Assembly (NCBI GenBank): GCA_029433475.1
Contig: JAQTIE010000009.1
Span: 62,001-126,000, forward strand
Length of the DNA: 64,000 nucleotides
Source: Neisseriaceae bacterium ESL0693
GTDB lineage: Bacteria > Pseudomonadota > Gammaproteobacteria > Burkholderiales > Neisseriaceae
Direction: 5' to 3'
Numbering within the stretch: position 1 is the stretch's first letter; each line of letters starts with the position of its first letter. The notes under the pieces are model-generated. The model made no database searches, was not told the DNA's origin, and was given only the letters and a program-made list of their open reading frames with translations. Below, piece by piece: positions 5,882-34,138 of this stretch. Both the position numbers and the translations under genes were made by a program.

Positions 5882-6613
5882 ATGTTATTAGGTGTCAATA
5901 TTGATCACGTAGCCACCTTGCGCAATGCCCGCCAGACGCCCTATCCCAGCCCCTTACAGGCAGCATTGATGGCTGAAACCTATGGTGCTGACCTGATTAC
6001 CATGCATTTGCGTGAAGACCGGCGCCATATTCATGACCATGATGTTTTTGCCGTTAAAGCAGCGATATCTACCCGTCTGAATCTGGAAATGGCACTGACG
6101 CCTGAAATGCTGGATAACGCCTTACAGGTACAGCCTGCTGATGTATGCATTGTGCCAGAAAAACGTCAGGAACTGACCACAGAAGGGGGACTGGACATAT
6201 TACATCAGCAGGATAAAGTGGCTGCCTATACAGAAAAACTACAAGCGGCAGGCATCCGGGTTTCTTTATTTATTGATGCCGATAACCAGCAGATTCAGGC
6301 TGCGCATGATGTCGGCGCCAGCGTAATTGAATTACATACCGGCGCTTATGCTGATGCGCCCAATAAAACCATGCGTACACAAGAATTATTACGCATTGAA
6401 GAAGCCGCCAATCAGGCCAGCGAATTGGGACTGATCGTGAATGCCGGCCACGGTTTGAATATTCACAATGTCACCCCCATTGTTAAAATACTGGCCATTA
6501 ATGAATTGAACATCGGCCATGCGCTTATTGCACAATCAGTATTTCTGGGTCTGGGCGAAGCCATCAGACAAATGAAAGACATCATGTTCCGAGCGCGCAG
6601 CCTACCTTATTAA
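5882..6613 (+). CDS. pdxJ: Pyridoxine 5'-phosphate synthase
   Basis: PdxJ condenses 1-deoxyxylulose 5-phosphate with 3-amino-2-oxopropyl phosphate to make pyridoxine 5'-phosphate, the last ring-forming step of the DXP-dependent vitamin B6 route. The 243-residue length is normal. Family blocks are [12 protein letters not shown] near residues 6-17, HLREDRRHI near 42-50, and the glutamate in [10 protein letters not shown] (E69). AAGGAA precedes the ATG at good spacing. acpS follows after 24 bases, the order pdxJ-acpS being common in proteobacteria. Confidence 0.97.
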
Positions 6614-6637
6614 CCCGCTATTTTTCAGGAAAATAAC

Positions 6638-7027
6638 ATGATTTATGGGATAGGTACCGATCTGGTTACCATTGATCGCATTGCCAGAATATGTAAAATC
6701 TATGGTGCCAATGCCGTAGCTGCCAAAATACTATCGCGGGTGGAAGCGCTAGAGTGGCCATCGGCCAGCCAGCCGGTGCTTTTTCTGGCCAAACGCTTTG
6801 CCGCCAAAGAAGCCTTTGCCAAAGCAGTGCATACCGGTTTACGCAGCCCGGTTACCTTGCGTCACATCGGCATCGGACATGATGCTCTGGGGCGGCCGGA
6901 ATTTATCTGTGAACCCAAACTCAATGACTGGCTTTTACAGAAAAATATTGGTCGTGTGCACCTAAGCCTCAGCGATGAAGGCCAGCATGTGGTGGCATTT
7001 GCGGTAGCGGAGTATCTTCATGACTGA
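6638..7027 (+). CDS. acpS: Holo-[acyl-carrier-protein] synthase
   Basis: AcpS moves 4'-phosphopantetheine from CoA to apo-ACP. The protein is 129 residues and has the two Mg-binding blocks of the family: D8 in GIGTDLV and E58 in RFAAKEAFAKA. The last 8 bases overlap the start of the Nudix gene, so the two are likely translated together. Confidence 0.96.
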   Translation: MIYGIGTDLVTIDRIARICKIYGANAVAAKILSRVEALEWPSASQPVLFLAKRFAAKEAFAKAVHTGLRSPVTLRHIGIGHDALGRPEFICEPKLNDWLLQKNIGRVHLSLSDEGQHVVAFAVAEYLHD

Positions 7028-25783: not shown

Positions 25784-26068
25784 TTATAAAAATTTTTTAG
25801 CTATTCTTTTTAATGTATCAATAGAAGAATCTGCCCATCTATTTCTTATAGCCCAAGCTTCTAATTCTTCTATATTTAAATAAAATTTGGCTTTATAAAG
25901 CTTAGTCAAATCATCTTTTATTCGTTTCCGATCATCCGCCCCTAACCCATGTTTATGGATTGAAGAATCTAATAGCCATAAAGTTTGATTAACTTCTTCT
26001 GGGAATACATTAATCTGTCTAGATTCTCCATTTTGAACTATAACTTTATAGGCCATGTTCTTTCCCAT
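25784..26068 (-). CDS. Unknown 94-residue protein, last gene of a small cassette
   Basis: Not recognised. The ATG at 26068 has an almost ideal ribosome site (AAGGAGAT six bases upstream), which makes this a real gene although its start overlaps the Rha-like gene by 31 bases. The protein starts MGKNMAYKVIVQNGESRQI and is rich in charged residues, with a helical middle (ADDRKRIKDDLTKLYKAKFY) and a C-terminal stretch ending LKRIAKKFL. There is no membrane segment or cysteine. It could be a phage-derived accessory protein; no function is assigned. Confidence 0.65.
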   Translation of the reverse strand: MGKNMAYKVIVQNGESRQINVFPEEVNQTLWLLDSSIHKHGLGADDRKRIKDDLTKLYKAKFYLNIEELEAWAIRNRWADSSIDTLKRIAKKFL

Positions 26069-26346
26069 TTATCTCCTTGCGCAATGCTCCAAGGCACAAA
26101 TATGATTTTGTTCTCTACCAACAACATAAACCCGTCTTTTGTCGTCTCATACATCTTACGCGGCTTAGCTTGCTTATCAATATATCCCGCCCATCCAAAA
26201 ATGGTTTGGCTAAATTTTTCAGATATTTGAGTGATAAAATTCTCAATGTCGCGTACAACATGATCATGATGTTTATCCAGTGACTTAGCAACTTTTAAAC
26301 TATCAGTCTTTAATTCCTGCCCATGTGCTATAGGAACCAATACCAT
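26038..26346 (-). CDS. Rha-family phage regulatory protein with atypical C-terminus
   Basis: About 102 residues from the ATG at 26346, with GGAG eight bases upstream; a GTG at 26355 also opens the frame. The Rha pattern is clear: LKTDSLKVAKSLDKHHDHVVRD, later KMYETTKDGFMLLV. In typical Rha proteins that last motif is followed by a conserved MGFTG...AFN region. Here it is replaced by an unrelated tail (ENKIIFVPWSIAQGDKWERT), so the domain looks cut short. Rha proteins come from temperate phages. The gene lies downstream of CRISPR array 1 on the same strand, with the 45-residue membrane peptide before it. Confidence 0.7.
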   Translation of the reverse strand: MVLVPIAHGQELKTDSLKVAKSLDKHHDHVVRDIENFITQISEKFSQTIFGWAGYIDKQAKPRKMYETTKDGFMLLVENKIIFVPWSIAQGDKWERTWPIKL

Positions 26347-26421
26347 ATTAATCACTCCATAACACCAACAATAAAAAAGCCTGCGATTAACATGAGCTTT
26401 CTATTTAGAATAATATCAATG

Positions 26422-26643: not shown

Positions 26644-27331
26644 TTTCTAAGCTACCTATGCGGCAGTGAACGCTTTAAAGCGAAAGTCGCACACCCAATC
26701 CACTTTCTAAGCTGCCTATGCGGCAGTGAACAACTAATAATATTTACACCACTCCCGCAGGTTTTTCTAAGCTGCCTACGCGGCAGTGAACATCCTAGTA
26801 ACGTTGTCTGTGTAACAGCGGATTTTCTAAGCTGCCTATGCGGCAGTGAACTTGCCATACTTCAGCGCCCTTGGTGTGAGTATTTTCTAAGCTGCCTATG
26901 CGGCAGTGAACAGATAAAATGATGAAGCTATTCCGCGTCCAGTTTTCTAAGCTACCTATGCGGCAGTGAACCGGTTACAGATTTTCGAATCATTGCATTA
27001 TCTTTTCTAAGCTACCTATGCGGCAGTGAACAGTCAACATTTTTGGGGTCGTCTGTGTATTCATTTCTAAGCTACCTATGCGGCAGTGAACTGACGATGA
27101 AGACGATATTATTGACGATGTGCATTTCTAAGCTACCTATGCGGCAGTGAACCGATAATTTGCCCGGCATTTTCAATGCGAATATTTCTAAGCTACCTAT
27201 GCGGCAGTGAACGCATAAATTGAAACAAACCACGCGCACCAGCTTTCTAAGCTACCTATGCGGCAGTGAACATTGCAAATGATAAAGAAGCAGCGGCAAA
27301 AGCTTTCTAAGCTACCTATGCGGCAGTGAAC
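26644..27331 (-). CRISPR. Type I-F CRISPR array 1 (12 repeats, 11 spacers)
   Basis: 28-base repeats begin at 26644, 26704, 26764, 26824, 26884, 26944, 27004, 27064, 27125, 27185, 27244 and 27304. Spacers are 32 bases, except one of 33 and one of 31. Read on the - strand the repeat starts GTTCACTGCCGCATAGG and ends CTTAGAAA, the type I-F form, with the Cas6f hairpin CTGCC-loop-GG(C/T)AG. The seven repeats nearest the leader are identical and carry T in the 3' stem arm (a G-U pair); four older ones carry C. Transcription should run from the leader at 27332+ leftward. No cas genes are in the window. Confidence 0.97.
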
Positions 27332-27461
27332 AGTAAGCATATCGTAAAAATACCCAATAAATCAAGTTAATATTCTATTTTTGTTCAAAATACCCAAATT
27401 TTTGGCTTATTTTTAAATCACTGTTTTTAAATCATAAATATTATGAGTAAAAAATTTGGGT
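27332..27461 (-). promoter_or_regulatory. Leader of CRISPR array 1 with IHF-like site and conserved inverted repeat
   Basis: This ~130-bp AT-rich sequence is closely matched by the one next to array 2 (30959-31088). It holds an IHF-like site at 27360-27372 (AATCAAGTTAATA, one mismatch to WATCAANNNNTTR). It also has a 12-base inverted repeat, ACCCAAATTTTT at 27392-27403 and AAAAATTTGGGT at 27450-27461. IHF bending of the leader is known to direct spacer integration in type I-F systems. The inverted repeat's role is unknown. Confidence 0.8.
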
Positions 27462-27581
27462 CTGAGTGGGTTTGGCGGTGATGGCTAAAGCGGTGATTAA
27501 CTGCCAATAGCCAATAATAGCCACCATAAAACAGCAGTGATAAAACGGTAGTCATAAACTGCAAAGCAGGGGCGATAAATA

Positions 27582-27601
27582 AGCGGCCGGGTTTGGCCGC
27601 T
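27582..27601 (-). terminator. Terminator of the 88-residue gene
   Basis: Stem AGCGGCC / GGCCGCT with a 6-base loop; on the - strand followed by TATTTAT. It lies 28 bases after the stop of the gene at 27630-27896. Confidence 0.6.
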
Positions 27602-27629
27602 GGGGTTGTGGTTTTTGTTGTGAATTACT

Positions 27630-27896
27630 TCAGGTGTTTTGTGGGCTAGTGTTGTTATCGGTATCAAGCAGATGAGATAAATCGGCCGACAGGTTTCCTG
27701 CCTGACAATTCTGGGCTTCGCTGGCCAGTTGTTCCAGCATATCGGCCAGTCGTTCGATTAAAACATAATTCTGGTGTTGGGCACTGTGCTGTATGCTTGC
27801 GGCCAGAATATCTGTATACCAGCTGAAATGTTCCAGTTTAAGTAAAGCATCGGCCGCGGCGGCGAGTAGATTATGGTTGATGGTGTAGGTTTTCAT
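27630..27896 (-). CDS. Unknown 88-residue protein
   Basis: Not recognised. The ribosome site is very strong (AGGAGG seven bases before the ATG at 27896), and a terminator follows, so it is likely a real single gene. The sequence is helical and Ala/Leu/Gln-rich (LLAAAADALLKLEHF, LIERLADMLEQLASEAQN) with two histidine-containing stretches and no membrane segment. In size and pattern it recalls small helical proteins of the DUF3077 kind in Pseudomonas, but the resemblance is too weak to name it. It lies just upstream of the array 1 leader, on the same strand. Confidence 0.6.
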   Translation of the reverse strand: MKTYTINHNLLAAAADALLKLEHFSWYTDILAASIQHSAQHQNYVLIERLADMLEQLASEAQNCQAGNLSADLSHLLDTDNNTSPQNT

Positions 27897-28480
27897 GCGG
27901 CACCTCCTGTTATTGAAGGGCTGAATACATGAGCAAGATAAAATAATTTGGATAACTGCATAGGTCTATACTGCCTTTCTTTCTGGTCTTAAATAAGCCC
28001 CTTATACTATTGATAAGCATTTAGAAAGTAGATCAATGGCAGATTGACAGACTCGCAGAAAGAAACCAGCAGGCGCAAGACTGCTCTGCCATCGTCCACC
28101 ATAAAGGGGCACACATGGCATGGGTTAAACAGACATAAAACACCGCTTAAATCAAACATTAAGCGGTTTGTCTGCCTTTCTGAATCAGTCTGCGACAACT
28201 GGCCACGCTATTGAACGTGGCCGGTCTATATTACAGTTTTAGTCAATTATTGCCAATCACTAAATCAAATTGAACCCGGCGTAATGAAATGCCAGCGCCG
28301 ATAAAAGGCGCAACCATGGGGCTGTTTTTGCCTGTATTTCTATGCCGGTAAGTGCATAACCTGACAGAATATCAGGTAATAGCAGTATAAGATCACCAGT
28401 AAAATAAACCTTGTATGCAAAAGCTGTAATGTAATCAGGATGCCGGTCATCGGCTGGTATATTTTAATCTTTCTATTACG
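27897..28480. other. Noncoding stretch with two hairpins
   Basis: No gene is seen. Two perfect hairpins are present: ACCGCTTAA at 28142-28150 with its complement at 28159-28167, and GGCCACG at 28201-28207 with its complement at 28216-28222. Either could be an old terminator. The open frame on the - strand at 28007-28198 has no ribosome site and no resemblance to a known family. Confidence 0.5.
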
Positions 28481-28685
28481 GCTATTTGTTGTTTATGCGG
28501 CAGTGAATTTGATGGCGTTATGCAAGTCGTTTGGTCTATTCTTAGGCGGTCTATGCGGCCGTAAACTATAGCGATAATAGCCGCCATTTAAGGTGGTTTT
28601 CTAAGCTGCTTATACGGTAGTAAACTGAAAGTTATTGCTGTGTTAAACCAGAAGAGCTTTCTAAGCTGCCAGCGCTTTCTGTATT
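28481..28685 (-). CRISPR. Fossil type I-F CRISPR array (four decayed repeats)
   Basis: Four repeat relics keep a period of 58-60 bases. They lie at about 28481-28508 (only the last 14 bases match well), 28539-28566 (21 of 28), 28598-28625 (24 of 28) and 28658-28670 (first 13 bases perfect, then cut). The gaps of 30, 31 and 32 bases are spacer-sized. This is a decayed array in the same orientation as arrays 1 and 2. The last relic is cut by sequence coding for an IS110-type transposase end. Confidence 0.8.
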
Positions 28686-28818
28686 CCGGCATAATTTGTA
28701 CCCAGATTTTATTGGTCGTCTTGTAAAAGCCGGAAAGCTGAAAAAGGTTATTATTACTGCATTGATGCGTAAATTAGCTGTTTATAAAAAGCAAGAGTTA
28801 TATATGCACATTGTGTAA
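28671..28818 (+). mobile_element. IS110-family transposase, C-terminal remnant
   Basis: In the frame ending at TAA 28816-28818, the sequence reads ALSVFRHNLYPDFIGRLVKA then GKLKKVIITALMRKLAV. This matches the C-terminal signature of IS110/IS116/IS902 transposases (A.R.NP....Y.RL...GK..K.ALTA.MRKL). The 5' portion is absent; the coding begins exactly where a CRISPR repeat is cut (28670/28671). IS110 elements have no classic inverted repeats and choose sites by recombinase plus guide (bridge) RNA, so a junction inside a repeat is notable. Confidence 0.72.
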
Positions 28819-28948
28819 CTGATTGATTTTGTTAATTATAATCCAAAATAATTTTGGTTGGTTTTGTGCGTCTTCAAAAAGCTTGATATGTTACATATCA
28901 TCTATAAATTAGTGAATACATTTTATGATTTCCCCCAACAGCTGAAAT

Positions 28949-28976
28949 TTTCTAAGCTGTCTATACGTTAGTGGAT
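28949..28976 (-). repeat. Solitary decayed CRISPR repeat
   Basis: A 28-base stretch starting TTTCTAAGCTGTCTATACG matches the array repeat at about 21-22 of 28 positions. It stands alone, 130 bases after the IS110 remnant and directly before the GH19 gene remnant. Confidence 0.65.
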
Positions 28977-28982
28977 CAATAA

Positions 28983-29297
28983 GTTGCTTTCAAATCTTTC
29001 TCAAATGGGGATAAGCTGAATATTATGTATGCTGACATAAATGCCAATAAACATGTTGGAGATGGATATCAATTTATAGGAAGGAAAATGTTCTGTTCGT
29101 AACAATGACTAAGCTTTTACGAGCCATATGAAACGACAAGATATTATGATTTTGTTGTCTCAGACCCAAAACCAGCGGCGGCCGCATCTGTATGGTTTTG
29201 GGAAATTTATTCTCAAGCGAGTAACACAGCTGAATCCGGTGATTTTGTAAAAGCAGGAAATATTGTAAAGAAAGGCACAAAAGCAAAACATCAATGA
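28983..29297 (+). pseudogene. Broken GH19-family endolysin/chitinase
   Basis: Frame 1 (28983-29099) reads SNGDKLNIMYADINANKHVG then DGYQFIGRK and stops. Frame 2 (29139-29297) reads YDFVVSDPKPAAAASVWFWE, then YSQASNTAESGDFVK, and stops. These match in order the GH19 lysozyme pattern (MYAN..GNG..SGDG..YRGRG; then DFV..P......SA.WFW......AD.GDF), with the middle QLTG region lost and the C-terminus cut. Such genes are phage endolysins or secreted antibacterial effectors. It is certainly not functional as it stands. Confidence 0.65.
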
Positions 29298-29541
29298 TTA
29301 AACTGTTGAAAAATTAAGGTGATAGGATAGGCATGGTAGATGGGCGTTATGGCTATATGATTATGAGTAGTCATTCATCAGGTGGTGTTACTGCTTTTAA
29401 TGGGAATATCTATACAGCTTTTTTGTGCAAAAAAAATATTGTTATGAACAACATTTCTAATATTCCAAAATAATAAATATTTTCTCTGTAAATTAAAAAT
29501 TAATATGGTTTGGCTATTAGTGTATATTTATAATGGCTTTC

Positions 29542-29570
29542 TTGTGTAGTTACATAATTGTAGTTATAAT
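29542..29570 (+). promoter_or_regulatory. Promoter of brnTA
   Basis: A -35 like TTGTGT at 29542-29547, a 17-base spacer and a perfect -10 TATAAT at 29565-29570. A direct repeat of TGTAGTTA (29545-29552 and 29560-29567) spans the spacer and is a good candidate operator for BrnA. The expected start of transcription (about 29577) is only a few bases before the brnT ATG. Confidence 0.7.
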
Positions 29571-29579
29571 ATTTTCATT

Positions 29580-29870
29580 ATGAAAAATATAACTTTTGAG
29601 TGGGATGAGAATAAGGCAGAAAATAATTTACGTAAGCATGGAGTTACTTTTATTGATGCTGCTGCTGTCTTTCAAGACCCTTGTTGTATGACAGTGCAAG
29701 ACGGGTTTGAAAATGGTGAATATCGTTGGCAGACACTTGGATATAGTCAGGGCGTTATTCTTTTACTGGTAGCACACACCTATACAGACAGTAATGGTGC
29801 TGAAATTATACGGATTATTTCTGCTCGTCGTGCCACTAAAGCTGAAAGGAAACTATATGAGCATGGTTAA
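29580..29870 (+). CDS. brnT: BrnT-family ribonuclease toxin
   Basis: 96 residues with the BrnT pattern: FEWDENKAENNLRKHGVTF near the N-terminus, then AAVFQDP, and a C-terminal part IIRIISARRATKAERKLYE. BrnT is a RelE-fold toxin that cleaves RNA and stops growth until neutralised by BrnA. The gene begins almost at the predicted transcription start and has no Shine-Dalgarno, so translation is likely leaderless. It overlaps brnA by 14 bases. All the recognisable motif is intact, unlike the debris around it. Confidence 0.93.
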   Translation: MKNITFEWDENKAENNLRKHGVTFIDAAAVFQDPCCMTVQDGFENGEYRWQTLGYSQGVILLLVAHTYTDSNGAEIIRIISARRATKAERKLYEHG

Positions 29871-30162
29871 ATATACAATAGATACATTGCCAAAACCCAG
29901 TGAATCAGATATTGATCGCTTAAAGAAATTGGCTGATTTGCCAGATGAAAATATTGATTGTAGTGATGTTCCTGCTCTTTCTGCTGAAGTTTGGGCACAA
30001 TCGTTAAAGTTAAGTGAGCTATATCGTCCACAGAAGAAACAAATCACTATACGTATTGATGCAGATGTTTTGGATTGGTTAAAAGCCGGTGGCAAAGGCT
30101 ATCAGACTAAATTGAATGAAATTTTACGACACAAAATGATGGAACAAAAATCACATCAATAA
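29857..30162 (+). CDS. brnA: BrnA-family antitoxin
   Basis: 101 residues from the ATG at 29857, which overlaps the brnT end; GAAAGGAA upstream is a good ribosome site. The earlier ATG at 29794 lies inside brnT and is not needed. The C-terminus carries the ribbon-helix-helix DNA-binding pattern (KKQITIRIDADVLDWLKAGG then KGYQTKLNEILRH), the part that binds its own promoter. The N-terminal segment (LPKPSESDIDRLKKLADLPD) should wrap the toxin. A terminator follows at 30182. Confidence 0.92.
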   Translation: MSMVKYTIDTLPKPSESDIDRLKKLADLPDENIDCSDVPALSAEVWAQSLKLSELYRPQKKQITIRIDADVLDWLKAGGKGYQTKLNEILRHKMMEQKSHQ

Positions 30163-30181
30163 TTTTGTGAGTTAATCACTG

Positions 30182-30208
30182 AAAGCCGGTTAATTGACTG
30201 GCTTTTTT
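30182..30208 (+). terminator. Terminator of brnTA
   Basis: Stem AAAGCCGG with CTGGCTTT (one G-U pair), 8-base loop, T-run to 30208. Confidence 0.8.
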
Positions 30209-30419
30209 ATTGGTAAATTATGGCAATAATGGACGAAATTCCAAATCCCGAAAGGCTGGTATCTGCTGATACTGACCCGGTTATTGGCCTTGGGACACGG
30301 CTTGGCTTAATACTGTGTTCAGGAATTATTTAGACGCCTTTAATGAATACGGTATTTCTGTTCTGCTGGCTGATAACGTAATCTCTTTGAAATAAACCAA
30401 TACATCAAAAATATCTCAG
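30209..30419. other. Noncoding/decayed stretch after brnTA
   Basis: One short reading stretch (about 30318-30397, RNYLDAFNEYGISVLLADN then a stop) looks like coding debris, but no family is recognised. No intact gene. Confidence 0.4.
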
Positions 30420-30506
30420 GTACCCATTGAGAAAGGCCTATTTGCCAGTTATAACAAGGCTGCTGAACCATATAAAGCAGTGGTTCAGCTAAGCAAAGGC
30501 AGCGAC
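30420..30506 (+). pseudogene. Phage-like coding remnant next to array 2
   Basis: An uninterrupted stretch reads VPIEKGLFASYNKAAEPYKA then VVQLSKGSD, running straight into a decayed CRISPR repeat at 30507. Its style (SYNKAAEPYKAVV.L.KG) resembles phage tail/baseplate proteins, but I cannot name the family. It has no start codon of its own. Confidence 0.35.
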
Positions 30507-30958
30507 TTTATAAGCTGTCTGTGGCAGTGAGCCACGCGCGCGGGATAGGACGTTGCCGGTAAAACACGGTTTTCTAAGCTGCCTATGCGGCAGTGAACCA
30601 ACATCATATTTCTGACCAACTCCCCCGAGGTTTCTAAGGTGCCTACACGGCAGTTAACAACTTATAGATTGGTTAGCAAGAAGGCTTGATTTTCTAAGCT
30701 ACCTATACGGCAGTTAACGTGTTCCTGAGGAAGATCGGAAAGATTTACTTTTTCTAAGCTACCTATACGGCAGTTAACGTCTTATTGACGTGAATGTGCG
30801 TTCTCTGGTCTTTCTAAGCTACCTATACGGCAGTTAACATATCGGTAAACTGAGCCGGCGCCATACGCAATTTCTAAGCTACCTATACGGCAGTTAACAT
30901 GCAGTCGTTTCTTTTGTTGCTGCGCCCGGATTTCTAAGCTACCTATACGGCAGTTAAC
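30507..30958 (-). CRISPR. Type I-F CRISPR array 2 (7 good repeats plus one decayed)
   Basis: Good 28-base repeats begin at 30571, 30631, 30691, 30751, 30811, 30871 and 30931, with 32-base spacers; a decayed 26-base repeat lies at 30507-30532. The five repeats nearest the leader are identical and read GTTAACTGCCGTATAGG...CTTAGAAA on the - strand, differing from array 1 by GTTAAC for GTTCAC and GTATA for GCATA. The oldest good repeat (30571) is exactly the array 1 GCC-type repeat, and 30631 is a hybrid. Orientation is as for array 1, with the leader at 30959+. Confidence 0.96.
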
Positions 30959-31088
30959 AGTAAGCATATCGCAAAAATACTCAATAAATCAAATTAATAT
31001 TCTGTTTCTATTCAAAATACCCAAATTTTTCGCTTATTTTTAAGTTAATGTTTTTAAATATAAAATATAGATGATGAAAAATTTGGGT
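30959..31088 (-). promoter_or_regulatory. Leader of CRISPR array 2
   Basis: Nearly the same sequence as the leader of array 1, including the first 13 bases after the repeat, the IHF-like site (30987-30999, AATCAAATTAATA) and both arms of the ACCCAAATTTTT inverted repeat (31019-31030 and 31077-31088). The middle between the arms is less conserved, which suggests the arms themselves are selected. Confidence 0.8.
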
Positions 31089-31966
31089 CTGCTTGGGTGT
31101 TTGATGATCAGAGTGAATTGTTTATCGGTTGATGACAAAAATGAGGGGTATGGCTGGGTTTTGAAATATTTTTGCTGCAATAAATACTATTCGGCGATCT
31201 GGCCACCAGTATCGGGTTTATGTAATGGTGCCTATGGATAGCTGTTTGATTAAATCGTTTGAATCAGGTTAAAAACGATCTGTGATGGATTTATGGGTTT
31301 TCGCTCAATCGAAAAACCTTTTTTATGGATTAAGAATGATTGCAGCAAAGAAAACAATAAATTAATGGTTTTGATGTTTTTTTATACTTAATACGGATAA
31401 GTTAAATAATATCTATAAATTCTATGTTTGCCACTATAAGCTATATATTTTGGCAGGCAATCATAAAAGAAAATGGCGATCTGGCGCTACTGGTGGTTTT
31501 TGCGCTACCGGCAAGATGATAAAAACGCGCATTGATGAATAAAACCGCAATGGAAGGTTTATATGATTTTCATGCAGATAACGGATATTGCTTTAATTAT
31601 GTTTACGGCTGCTTTCTTCGTTTTGTTTCTGCCTTTCTATAAAGATAGATGATTGAATCATGCTTGTGTTGCCTGTAACAGGTAATTATGTTCATGAAAA
31701 AGAGGTGTCCGGAATGCTGTTTCAAAGAAAAACCGGAGCGCGTATCTTCGGATTTGGCCATGGGTAAAAGCATGAAGACAATCTGATTGATAAGGTGTTG
31801 CATGACGGGATTTTTATCAGGCGGCTGTAAATCTTGTATCCATTCAGCGAATGCATGCATGGATTGCTATAGGGAAATCAGTATTCATAAGCATCAATAT
31901 TGATTTTTCAGGTTGATTCATTTCATGTAAAGCCAAAGATCAGAATAATGCTGTATCGTGTTGATT
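31089..31966. other. AT-rich stretch between array 2 leader and copA
   Basis: No convincing gene. A hairpin with T-run (GGGTTTTCG / CGAAAAACC at about 31295-31318, then TTTTTT) looks like a + strand terminator. The - strand frame at 31603-31860 (85 codons) has no ribosome site and no recognisable family, so I do not call it. Confidence 0.5.
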
Positions 31967-34138
31967 TCAGGTTTTGGTTTTTCGCTGCAAGGTGGTTTGC
32001 TTTAGTCTTAGCGCATTGATTAATACTGAAATCGAGCTTAATGCCATGGCGAGGCCGGCGATGGCCGGACTGAGTAAACCGAGTGCGGCCAGCGGAATGC
32101 CGAGGATATTGTAGAAAAAGGCAAAAAACAGATTTTGTTTGATTGTGCGCATGGTCTGGCTGGCCAGTATCAGTGCATCGGCGATCTGGTTAACGGAATG
32201 GCGCATCAGGGTGGCTGAGGCGGTGTGCGCTGCTACATCGGCGCCGCCATACATGGCAAAGCTGACATCGGCGGCGGCCAGTGCCGGCGCATCGTTCACG
32301 CCATCGCCGACCATGGCTACTACGTGGCCGGCCTGTTGTTGCTGCCGGATCATCTGCGCTTTATCTCTTGGGGTCATGTCGGCAAAATAGCGGCTTACTG
32401 CCACTGCCTGTGCCATATAGTGCACAACTTGTGCATGGTCTCCGCTCATGATTTCTACGTTGATGTTCTGTTGTTGCAGGCGTTGCACGCCTTCTATGGC
32501 ATCGGTTTTGAGTTCGTCAGCCAGCGCCCAGGCACTGATCACCTGATTATTGACGGCCATGACTACGATACTGGCCATTTGCCACTGTGGGTTTTGTTGT
32601 AATGATGGTGGTGTATGAAAATGACAGTATTCAGGCCGGCCTATTTTAATTTCACCGATGCCGGTAATACTGGCACTCATGCCCTGTCCTTGCTCGGCAT
32701 GGGTCTGGCTGACGGGCAATAATTCAAGCTGCTGTTTTACTGCCAAAGCCACCAGTGCACGCGCCAGAGGGTGGTTGGCTTGTTGTTCTATGCTGGCCGC
32801 CCATTGCAGGCATTGCGCAGGGGTATAGGGTGAGTTTTCGGGTTGCCATTGTGCTACTACCTGCGCTTGCCCTTGAGTGAGGGTGCCGGTTTTATCCAGC
32901 ACTACGGTATCCACCTGACTGCTGCGTTCTAAGGCGGCGGCATCTTTAAACCAGATGCCATAACGCGCGGCTTTACCCATGCCAACCATGACTGCGGCAG
33001 GTGTGGCCAGTCCGAGTGCACACGGGCAGGCGATTACCAATACAGCCACTGCCCGGGTTACGGCTGCTTCCAATTGGCCGGTCAGCCACCAGTTGAGTAT
33101 GAATGTGGCCAGCGCCAGCACGATTACGGTGGGCACAAATACTGCGGCTACTTTATCCGCCAGCCGTGCAATCGGCGCTTTGGTGCCTTGTGCTTCTGAT
33201 AAGGCGTTCATCATGTCGCCCAGTAAAGTCTGGCTGCCGGTGGTCTGTACCTGATAAGCGATGCTGCCATCACTTACCAGAGCACCGGCCAGTACTTTAT
33301 CTCCGGTTTGTTTGTGTAATGGTTTTGATTCGCCGGTTAAATGGCTTTCATCAAACCAGCCTTCTCCCTGGCTGATGATGCCGTCTGCGGCAATGCGGTC
33401 ACCGCTATTGGCCTGCAAGATGTCGTTTTGCTGAATTTCTTTCAGGGGAACAGTCTGCCAGGTGGTTCCGGATTTACGGCGGACAGTATCGGGGGTTAAT
33501 TTCAACAGCAGGTTGAGGCTGTTCAGGCTTTGTTTTTTGGTGCGTTGTTCCAGATATTTACCGAGGGAAACAAAGGCAATCACCATGACGCTGGCTTCAA
33601 AATAAAGCTGATGCGGCTGATGTCTGAGCCAGAGCATATCGCTTGAATAAAACCAGATGGATAATGTGCCTAAACTGACCAGTACGTCCATATTGGCCAG
33701 CCGGCCTTTGATGGAGGCGTACGCGCCCTGATAAAACGGCCATGCCAGACCAAATTGTACGATGGTGGCCAGAATAAACTGCCACACAGGCGGCAGCATC
33801 CAGTCTGGCTTTTGCAGCAACATACCGAACATGCCCACCAGAAATGGCAGAGTCAGTAACCAGATACACCACAATCGCCATGAGGGCGGCGGCGCTTCAC
33901 TGATGGCGGGTAAGACGTTGTCTTTTATTGGTACCGCCTCAAATCCGGCTTTTTGAATCAAGGCGATGATGTCGGTTTCATTCAGCTGTTTATCATCATA
34001 ATCAATCTGGGCTTCTTCGCTGGCAAAATTGACTTCGGCATCCACAACCGCCGGCTGCCGCCGTAATACTTTTTCAATACGTGCGGCACAGGCCTGACAG
34101 CTCATGCCATTAATATGAAAACGGGCTTTCTGTTGCAT
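31967..34138 (-). CDS. copA: Copper-exporting P1B-type ATPase
   Basis: CopA pumps Cu(I) out of the cytoplasm. 723 residues. There is one N-terminal heavy-metal domain (GMSCQACAAR, C14 and C17), the first membrane helices (about 90-195), and the actuator motif TGES near 268. Then come the intramembrane metal site C371-P-C373, the phosphorylated D415 in DKTGTL, the ATP-binding HP motif (QANHPLARAL), and GDGVNDAPAL before the last helices. All catalytic parts are present. The gene follows copZ by 63 bases on the same strand; both should be driven by the CueR-type promoter at 34471-34507. Confidence 0.96.
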   Translation of the reverse strand: MQQKARFHINGMSCQACAARIEKVLRRQPAVVDAEVNFASEEAQIDYDDKQLNETDIIALIQKAGFEAVPIKDNVLPAISEAPPPSWRLWCIWLLTLPFLVGMFGMLLQKPDWMLPPVWQFILATIVQFGLAWPFYQGAYASIKGRLANMDVLVSLGTLSIWFYSSDMLWLRHQPHQLYFEASVMVIAFVSLGKYLEQRTKKQSLNSLNLLLKLTPDTVRRKSGTTWQTVPLKEIQQNDILQANSGDRIAADGIISQGEGWFDESHLTGESKPLHKQTGDKVLAGALVSDGSIAYQVQTTGSQTLLGDMMNALSEAQGTKAPIARLADKVAAVFVPTVIVLALATFILNWWLTGQLEAAVTRAVAVLVIACPCALGLATPAAVMVGMGKAARYGIWFKDAAALERSSQVDTVVLDKTGTLTQGQAQVVAQWQPENSPYTPAQCLQWAASIEQQANHPLARALVALAVKQQLELLPVSQTHAEQGQGMSASITGIGEIKIGRPEYCHFHTPPSLQQNPQWQMASIVVMAVNNQVISAWALADELKTDAIEGVQRLQQQNINVEIMSGDHAQVVHYMAQAVAVSRYFADMTPRDKAQMIRQQQQAGHVVAMVGDGVNDAPALAAADVSFAMYGGADVAAHTASATLMRHSVNQIADALILASQTMRTIKQNLFFAFFYNILGIPLAALGLLSPAIAGLAMALSSISVLINALRLKQTTLQRKTKT

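Follow-up and report, generated by a model that had tools for sequence, protein, structure and literature searches.

Type I-F CRISPR arrays dispersed in a Neisseriaceae genome as probable trans-acting memory loci of one distant cas operon

RESULTS

Two type I-F arrays in a 64-kb window

We analyzed a stretch of 64,000 nucleotides (nt) from Neisseriaceae bacterium ESL0693 (assembly GCA_029433475.1, contig JAQTIE010000009.1; C25:62001-126000 in our numbering), hereafter the window, which carries two tandem arrays of clustered regularly interspaced short palindromic repeats (CRISPR) of type I-F. The genome comprises 2.23 Mb in 25 contigs, with a reported completeness of 99.99%, and holds a complete I-F cas operon on another contig, C22. 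As argued below, the window arrays very probably serve in trans as memory loci of a system, active now or until recently, that includes this operon, has lost its own operon-side array to decay, and has spread its arrays in linkage with a sequence module. The features of the window, including the open reading frames (ORFs) around the arrays, are as follows (positions are those of the window; aa, amino acids).

26038..26355, minus strand: short copy of a phage regulator of the Rha family, located downstream of array 1 (Pfam, 1.8e-14; PHROG 518)
26644..27331, minus strand: CRISPR array 1, type I-F, 12 repeats and 11 spacers (Rfam CRISPR-DR4)
27332..27471, minus strand: array 1 leader, 83-92% identical to the other long leader copies
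27630..27896, minus strand: 88-aa ORF; its family has 20 matches in the genome and none in 13 searched siblings
28021..28106, minus strand: C4-antisense-RNA-like sequence (26.8 of 45 bits, under the Rfam gathering score)
28481..28625, minus strand: remnant array of three decayed repeats at 58-59 nt spacing (mismatch scan)
28949..28976, minus strand: solitary decayed repeat, 6 mismatches (mismatch scan)
29580..29870, plus strand: BrnT toxin family ORF, type II toxin-antitoxin (Pfam PF04365, 5.2e-26)
29794..30162, plus strand: BrnA antitoxin family ORF, from the first start codon (Pfam PF14384, 6.6e-17)
30510..30535 (about), minus strand: terminal repeat of array 2, decayed and gapped (by eye)
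30571..30958, minus strand: CRISPR array 2, type I-F, 7 repeats and 6 spacers (Rfam CRISPR-DR4)
30959..31098, minus strand: array 2 leader, with no upstream 88-aa-ORF module found

An earlier note, made from the sequence of the window alone, had described two tandem type I-F arrays of 12 repeats and of 7 repeats plus a decayed one, and these counts hold. The repeats are 28 nt long, and 18 of the 19 reach the gathering score of Rfam CRISPR-DR4 (E 1.6e-8 to 5.6e-5), all on the minus strand, so that both leaders lie on the right side of their arrays. The remaining repeat (30631-30658, four mismatches) has no listed CRISPR-DR4 match. The decayed terminal repeat of array 2 was recognized by eye with a gap and is not among the ungapped matches of up to nine mismatches. 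The Cas6f handle CTTAGAAA, also named in that note, is present in the window repeats, and the 17 spacers are 31-33 nt long. The two leaders are AT-rich and 86.5% identical over 141 columns. The leader-proximal repeats had been called identical, which is correct within each array (7 of 12 in array 1 and 5 of 7 in array 2); the leader-proximal repeats of the two arrays differ from each other at two positions.

The 3.2-kb interval between the arrays contains the BrnT/BrnA pair, the array 1 leader, the 88-aa ORF, the C4-like RNA, and four decayed repeats. The latter, at 28481, 28539, 28598, and 28949, have 9, 7, 4, and 6 mismatches, respectively, and lie on the same strand as the arrays; the best matches in each of 200 mononucleotide shuffles had 10-14 mismatches. 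The 88-aa ORF had no match in Pfam above the cut-off, in NCBIfam, or in PHROGs.

A complete cas operon on contig C22 and the array beside it

A whole-genome cas search, proposed in the earlier note, revealed a complete operon on C22 in the order cas1, cas2-3, csy1, csy2, csy3, csy4. Each gene is one open frame, and the products (Cas1f, Cas3f, Csy1, Csy2, Csy3, and Csy4) all score above the NCBIfam cut-off. The statement that the window carries no cas genes is supported by csy1 and cas1, each of which has one match genome-wide, on C22, the 64 kb not having been scanned for all cas families. Among 14 genomes of the genus, a subset of the 41 genomes searched for csy1, only this genome and the sibling G012 have csy1, and the same two alone have repeats within three mismatches of the consensus.

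No CRISPR-DR4 match at the gathering score was found in the 20-kb stretch with the operon. Downstream of csy4, a 59-nt leader-like stretch (73% identity, E 6e-4) is followed by two decayed repeats on the right strand, 66 nt apart, with eight mismatches each; the next best match in the 20 kb has 10 mismatches, and the best matches in each of 20 mononucleotide shuffles have 9-12. In G012, a leader and repeats stand downstream of the operon, at the place corresponding to these sequences, and the operons of both genomes lie behind a RecO-like ORF (named by eye). The cas1 and cas2-3 genes of G012 (L055 6074-10398) read as split frames, which may reflect decay or assembly error. Judged from these matches, the operon-adjacent array of C22 has decayed. 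The absence of an intact operon-side array marks a variant of the usual I-F layout, in which adjacency is not a requirement.

Thirteen arrays with related leaders

In the fetched stretches, we counted 13 arrays with at least three repeats each. C25 and C2 carry two arrays apiece, and the other nine lie within the initial 39 kb of contig C4. Together, the arrays have 111 repeats and 98 spacers, 97 of them distinct. Because the arrays at C4:101-308 and C2:260202-260711 are located at the start and near the end of their contigs, respectively, miscounts and missing or collapsed copies are possible. The whole genome likewise contains 111 repeats within three mismatches of the consensus, namely 108 of the array repeats and three solitary ones (C2:257901, C4:34690, and C23:159270), which leaves none for C22. 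Identical sequence is found in 52 of the 111 array repeats, and the five stem pairs are all preserved in 105 (counting G-U pairs). At the ends of several arrays, the repeats are degenerate.

The 34-nt leader end occurs in 13 copies at up to three mismatches, 12 of them before arrays, and was not found at this threshold in the 13 sibling genomes. The long leader copies, of ~140 nt, are those compared with the array 1 leader in the feature list. The array at C4:36017 has no leader end and has a HicB-like antitoxin ORF ~0.5 kb upstream. The leader at C4:15700 (L014 15599-15760) is followed by one broken repeat and no array, and may be an emptied or never-filled site.

Repeat runs, array duplications, and spacer matches

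A run of at least two identical repeats stands at the leader end of 12 of the 13 arrays. In six arrays, the run consists of a non-consensus variant (seven copies in array 1, five in array 2, and four, two, two, and five in arrays on contig C4). Such runs would be explained by copying of the first repeat at each acquisition. On contig C4, an array pair duplicated in inverted order (6123-6872 and 31460-32390) has similar leaders and one common tail but no common spacer, which argues that spacers were turned over after the duplication. A third, partial copy (C4:101-308) has one spacer and the tail in common with 6123-6270.

Read on the spacer strand, the type I-F motif is by convention a CC on the 5' side of the protospacer. 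The newest spacer of the array at C4:23248 (L015 3248-3994) equals C22:171841-171872, a chromosomal site, at 32 of 32 positions; the cas operon is ~7 kb away from this site. In the same array, the leader-distal spacer has a 30-nt match to trbM in a conjugation-type region (C23:199642), with CC two nt further 5'. The present unit of this spacer is 55 nt instead of 60; a loss of five nt where handle and spacer meet would reconcile the match with a 32-nt spacer and a proper motif. Provided that this spacer was 32 nt long, CC is in place at one of the two self matches. These two are the only self matches outside arrays listed at E <= 0.01, with 21 of 24 first-look candidates scored. The sections of PMC5059440 consulted give the motif as GG 3' of the protospacer and describe "slipping" in I-F acquisition.

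Spacers of two different arrays overlap by 14 nt, and the first places CC 5' of the second. Another pair from different arrays has a 19-nt stretch with one mismatch (score 16, compared with 14 for the end-overlap pair and 13 for the best of three shuffled sets). The two pairs, from the arrays at C4:13384, C4:23248, and C2:239417, hint at common targets.

A module upstream of the leaders

The ~0.9 kb upstream of array 1, C4:38009, and C2:239417 are alike (84-85%) and contain the C4-like RNA, the 88-aa ORF, and the leader. The regions on contigs C2 and C4 homologous to the C4-like RNA of the window pass the Rfam cut-off. In a profile search built from four modules (E <= 0.01, weakest match 9e-4), a module piece around the 3' end of the 88-aa ORF was found to precede 11 of the 14 leader copies at a distance of 2-77 nt; the leader fragments L017 1989-2036 and L016 6262-6320 were left out of this count. 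With the training modules removed, 7 of 10 independent leader copies have the piece.

Both components of the module are abundant in this genome. The matches to the 88-aa ORF family include one short fragment and one with an internal stop. C4 antisense RNA (RF01695) has at least 41 matches here and 0-3 in each of the 13 siblings; up to 150 first-look candidates per genome were scored, and the counts may be low. The C4 antisense RNAs often stand in tandem, many with the 88-aa ORF (L049 4598-7575, L052 2732-4701, and L050 5780-8708). Many module copies have no leader. The array ends differ between copies, except in two local duplications on contig C4, and no element ends were found around the array copies, terminal repeats and target duplications not having been specifically searched for. 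We infer a single joining of leader and module, after which the leader was copied either along with the module or through recombination between module copies. Transposition of the leader-array unit is another conceivable route.

The window site in sibling genomes

Both genes that flank the window arrays lie on one contig in 6 of the 13 siblings, and none of these six has repeats (up to three mismatches). In G005, the matched parts of the two genes are 185 nt apart. In G004, G011, G013, G008, and G006, about 5.6 to 12 kb separate the two genes, and in the three genomes inspected (G004, G008, and G011) this interval holds other genes. In G002, G004, and G011, a piece resembling the C4 region shares its contig with at least one of the flanking genes, and G008 has a 56-nt piece. 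As the sibling flanks lack repeats and nearly adjoin in G005, nothing in these alignments suggests that a cas operon once stood at the window site.

DISCUSSION

A single operon serving dispersed arrays

We propose that the C22 operon supplies Cas1 and Cas2-3, by which spacers would be inserted at the leader end of dispersed arrays with the same leader. Cas6f (Csy4) from C22 would cut the transcripts of these arrays, and the Csy complex with Cas2-3 would carry out interference. The leader-array unit may have spread with copies of the C4-like RNA/88-aa-ORF module, or by recombination between them. The leader-end runs, the near lack of repeated spacers (97 of 98 distinct), and the perfect self match suggest that the remote arrays gained their spacers in place, presumably by means of the distant Cas1 and Cas2-3.

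Several observations weigh against this proposal. The leader-end run consists of the common repeat in 6 of the 13 arrays and is less telling there, and the array 2 variant recurs once in the C4:36017 array, so that the runs are no strict proof of local copying and recombination between arrays could contribute. The perfect self match has no correctly placed CC. Its 5' flank is GGCCAG, with the CC displaced by two nt, which fits slipping and might spare the cell. A correctly placed CC is expected by chance in about 1 of 16 cases, so that two instances are weak evidence. The 14-nt spacer overlap barely exceeds the best of three shuffled spacer sets (13). Searches elsewhere yielded no convincing protospacer: the 97 distinct spacers, joined by N, gave none in the 13 sibling genomes (searched with this genome as the 14 of the genus) and one weak match among phages (Mcat28, 30 of 32, flank GC); the 17 window spacers gave none among plasmids, and exact scans of viral contigs for two window spacers and for the joined overlap pattern found none. 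Also, 3 of the 14 leader copies, those of array 2, C2:260711, and C4:31426, have no upstream module.

Alternative explanations

It is unlikely, in our judgment, that the arrays were brought in by prophages or other mobile elements and work for these elements. Such an origin would agree with the Rha regulator that adjoins array 1, with C4 RNA matches in the vicinity of three arrays (contigs C2 and C4), and with a C4 RNA in G013 that directly precedes a Rha-like ORF in a phage-like arrangement (by eye; L061, G013:C2:2000-5000). Toxin-antitoxin genes near three array loci point the same way. By contrast, the flanks of the C2 and C4 arrays look like housekeeping genes and not phage structural genes (ORF translations by eye), window positions 27332-31300 match no phage record, and an exact scan of viral contigs for the leader pattern was negative. 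The three toxin-antitoxin loci are BrnTA at 29580-30162, a HicB-like ORF at L015 15075-15500, and HicA-HicB in one frame at L018 3458-4072.

Slightly less likely still is that operon and arrays are complete but fossil, the system no longer acquiring or interfering. The decayed cas-side array, the degenerate end repeats, the array without a leader, and the leader without an array would fit this explanation, as would the tolerated perfect self match, albeit one that lacks a correctly placed CC. It is opposed by the state of the six cas ORFs, all open and over the cut-off, by the sequence and stem conservation of the repeats, and by the newest spacer of one array, which still equals the present chromosome exactly.

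The suggestion in the earlier note that these are orphan arrays whose adjacent cas operon was lost is very improbable: debris and decayed repeats do lie between the arrays, but the complete operon stands on C22 behind the same RecO-like ORF as that of G012, the genome has no second csy1 or cas1 (the only two cas genes sought in the window), the 12 siblings besides G012 have no repeat within three mismatches, and the flanking genes of G005 are about 190 nt apart. The comparison with relatives thus favors the other possibility named in the note, that an operon never lay there.

Two further candidates were rejected. Tn7-like I-F3 CRISPR transposons are without cas1 and cas2-3 and carry tniQ and tnsABC; here, cas1 and cas2-3 are present, tniQ and tns genes not having been searched. 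Anti-cas orphan arrays were rejected because the genome has a cognate I-F cas operon that no spacer matches at E <= 0.01.

Under the preferred explanation, in which one operon on C22 serves the dispersed arrays, a more specific idea is possible but rather doubtful: the leader with its first repeat may be a genomic repeat element on the C4-RNA/88-aa-ORF module, seeding array sites that one distant cas operon fills. If so, immune memory would have left the cas-adjacent array entirely and now reside in dispersed copies, and two RNA immunity devices, C4-like antisense RNAs and CRISPR RNA arrays, would spread as one composite unit.

Comparison with known systems

The comparisons below rest on the consulted sections of the cited papers. 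Pectobacterium atrosepticum has one I-F system with three arrays (PMC5059440). The present system resembles it in the six-gene operon, the 28-nt hairpin repeats, the mostly 32-nt spacers, and a possible slipped acquisition, and differs in having 13 arrays, none intact beside the operon, with the cas-side array decayed. Escherichia coli CRISPR4 consists of orphan I-F anti-cas arrays (PMC12814883), which like the arrays described here have no nearby cas genes; unlike that case, an I-F operon is present in this genome, and no spacer matches it at E <= 0.01. In a survey in the same paper, I-F systems typically have two or more arrays, and arrays with identical repeats are stated to acquire spacers at similar rates irrespective of how far they lie from cas (PMC12814883). 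Acinetobacter baumannii has multicopy Group 1 C4-like small RNAs (PMC5320573), and is similar to this bacterium in harboring many C4-like RNAs in one genome; the sections consulted of that paper make no mention of a link to a CRISPR leader or an 88-aa ORF.

Clostridioides difficile 630 has 12 arrays, and in most strains of the species several arrays lie inside prophages; the arrays co-localize with type I toxin-antitoxin modules, and those far from cas are thought to use the same Cas proteins (PMC6079278). The genome studied here similarly has about a dozen arrays that belong to one repeat type and stand at a distance from a full cas set, and toxin-antitoxin genes near arrays, of type II instead of type I. 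In contrast to C. difficile, the system is I-F and not I-B and has one cas set, compared with two or three in most C. difficile strains, and only a Rha fragment and C4 RNAs, no intact prophage, were seen around the arrays. A limited search of the open-licence literature, including that on Snodgrassella CRISPR, found, among the papers listed, no I-F equivalent with a dead cas-side array and 13 remote arrays.

The result also carries a caution: an array called orphan because no cas genes lie in the window needs a whole-genome check. With 13 arrays, one Cas1, and no living operon-side array, this genome offers a natural case in which acquisition seems to occur only in trans. It allows one to test whether spacer uptake is governed by the distance to cas, by the number of leader copies, or by the repeat variant, and how arrays multiply within a genome.

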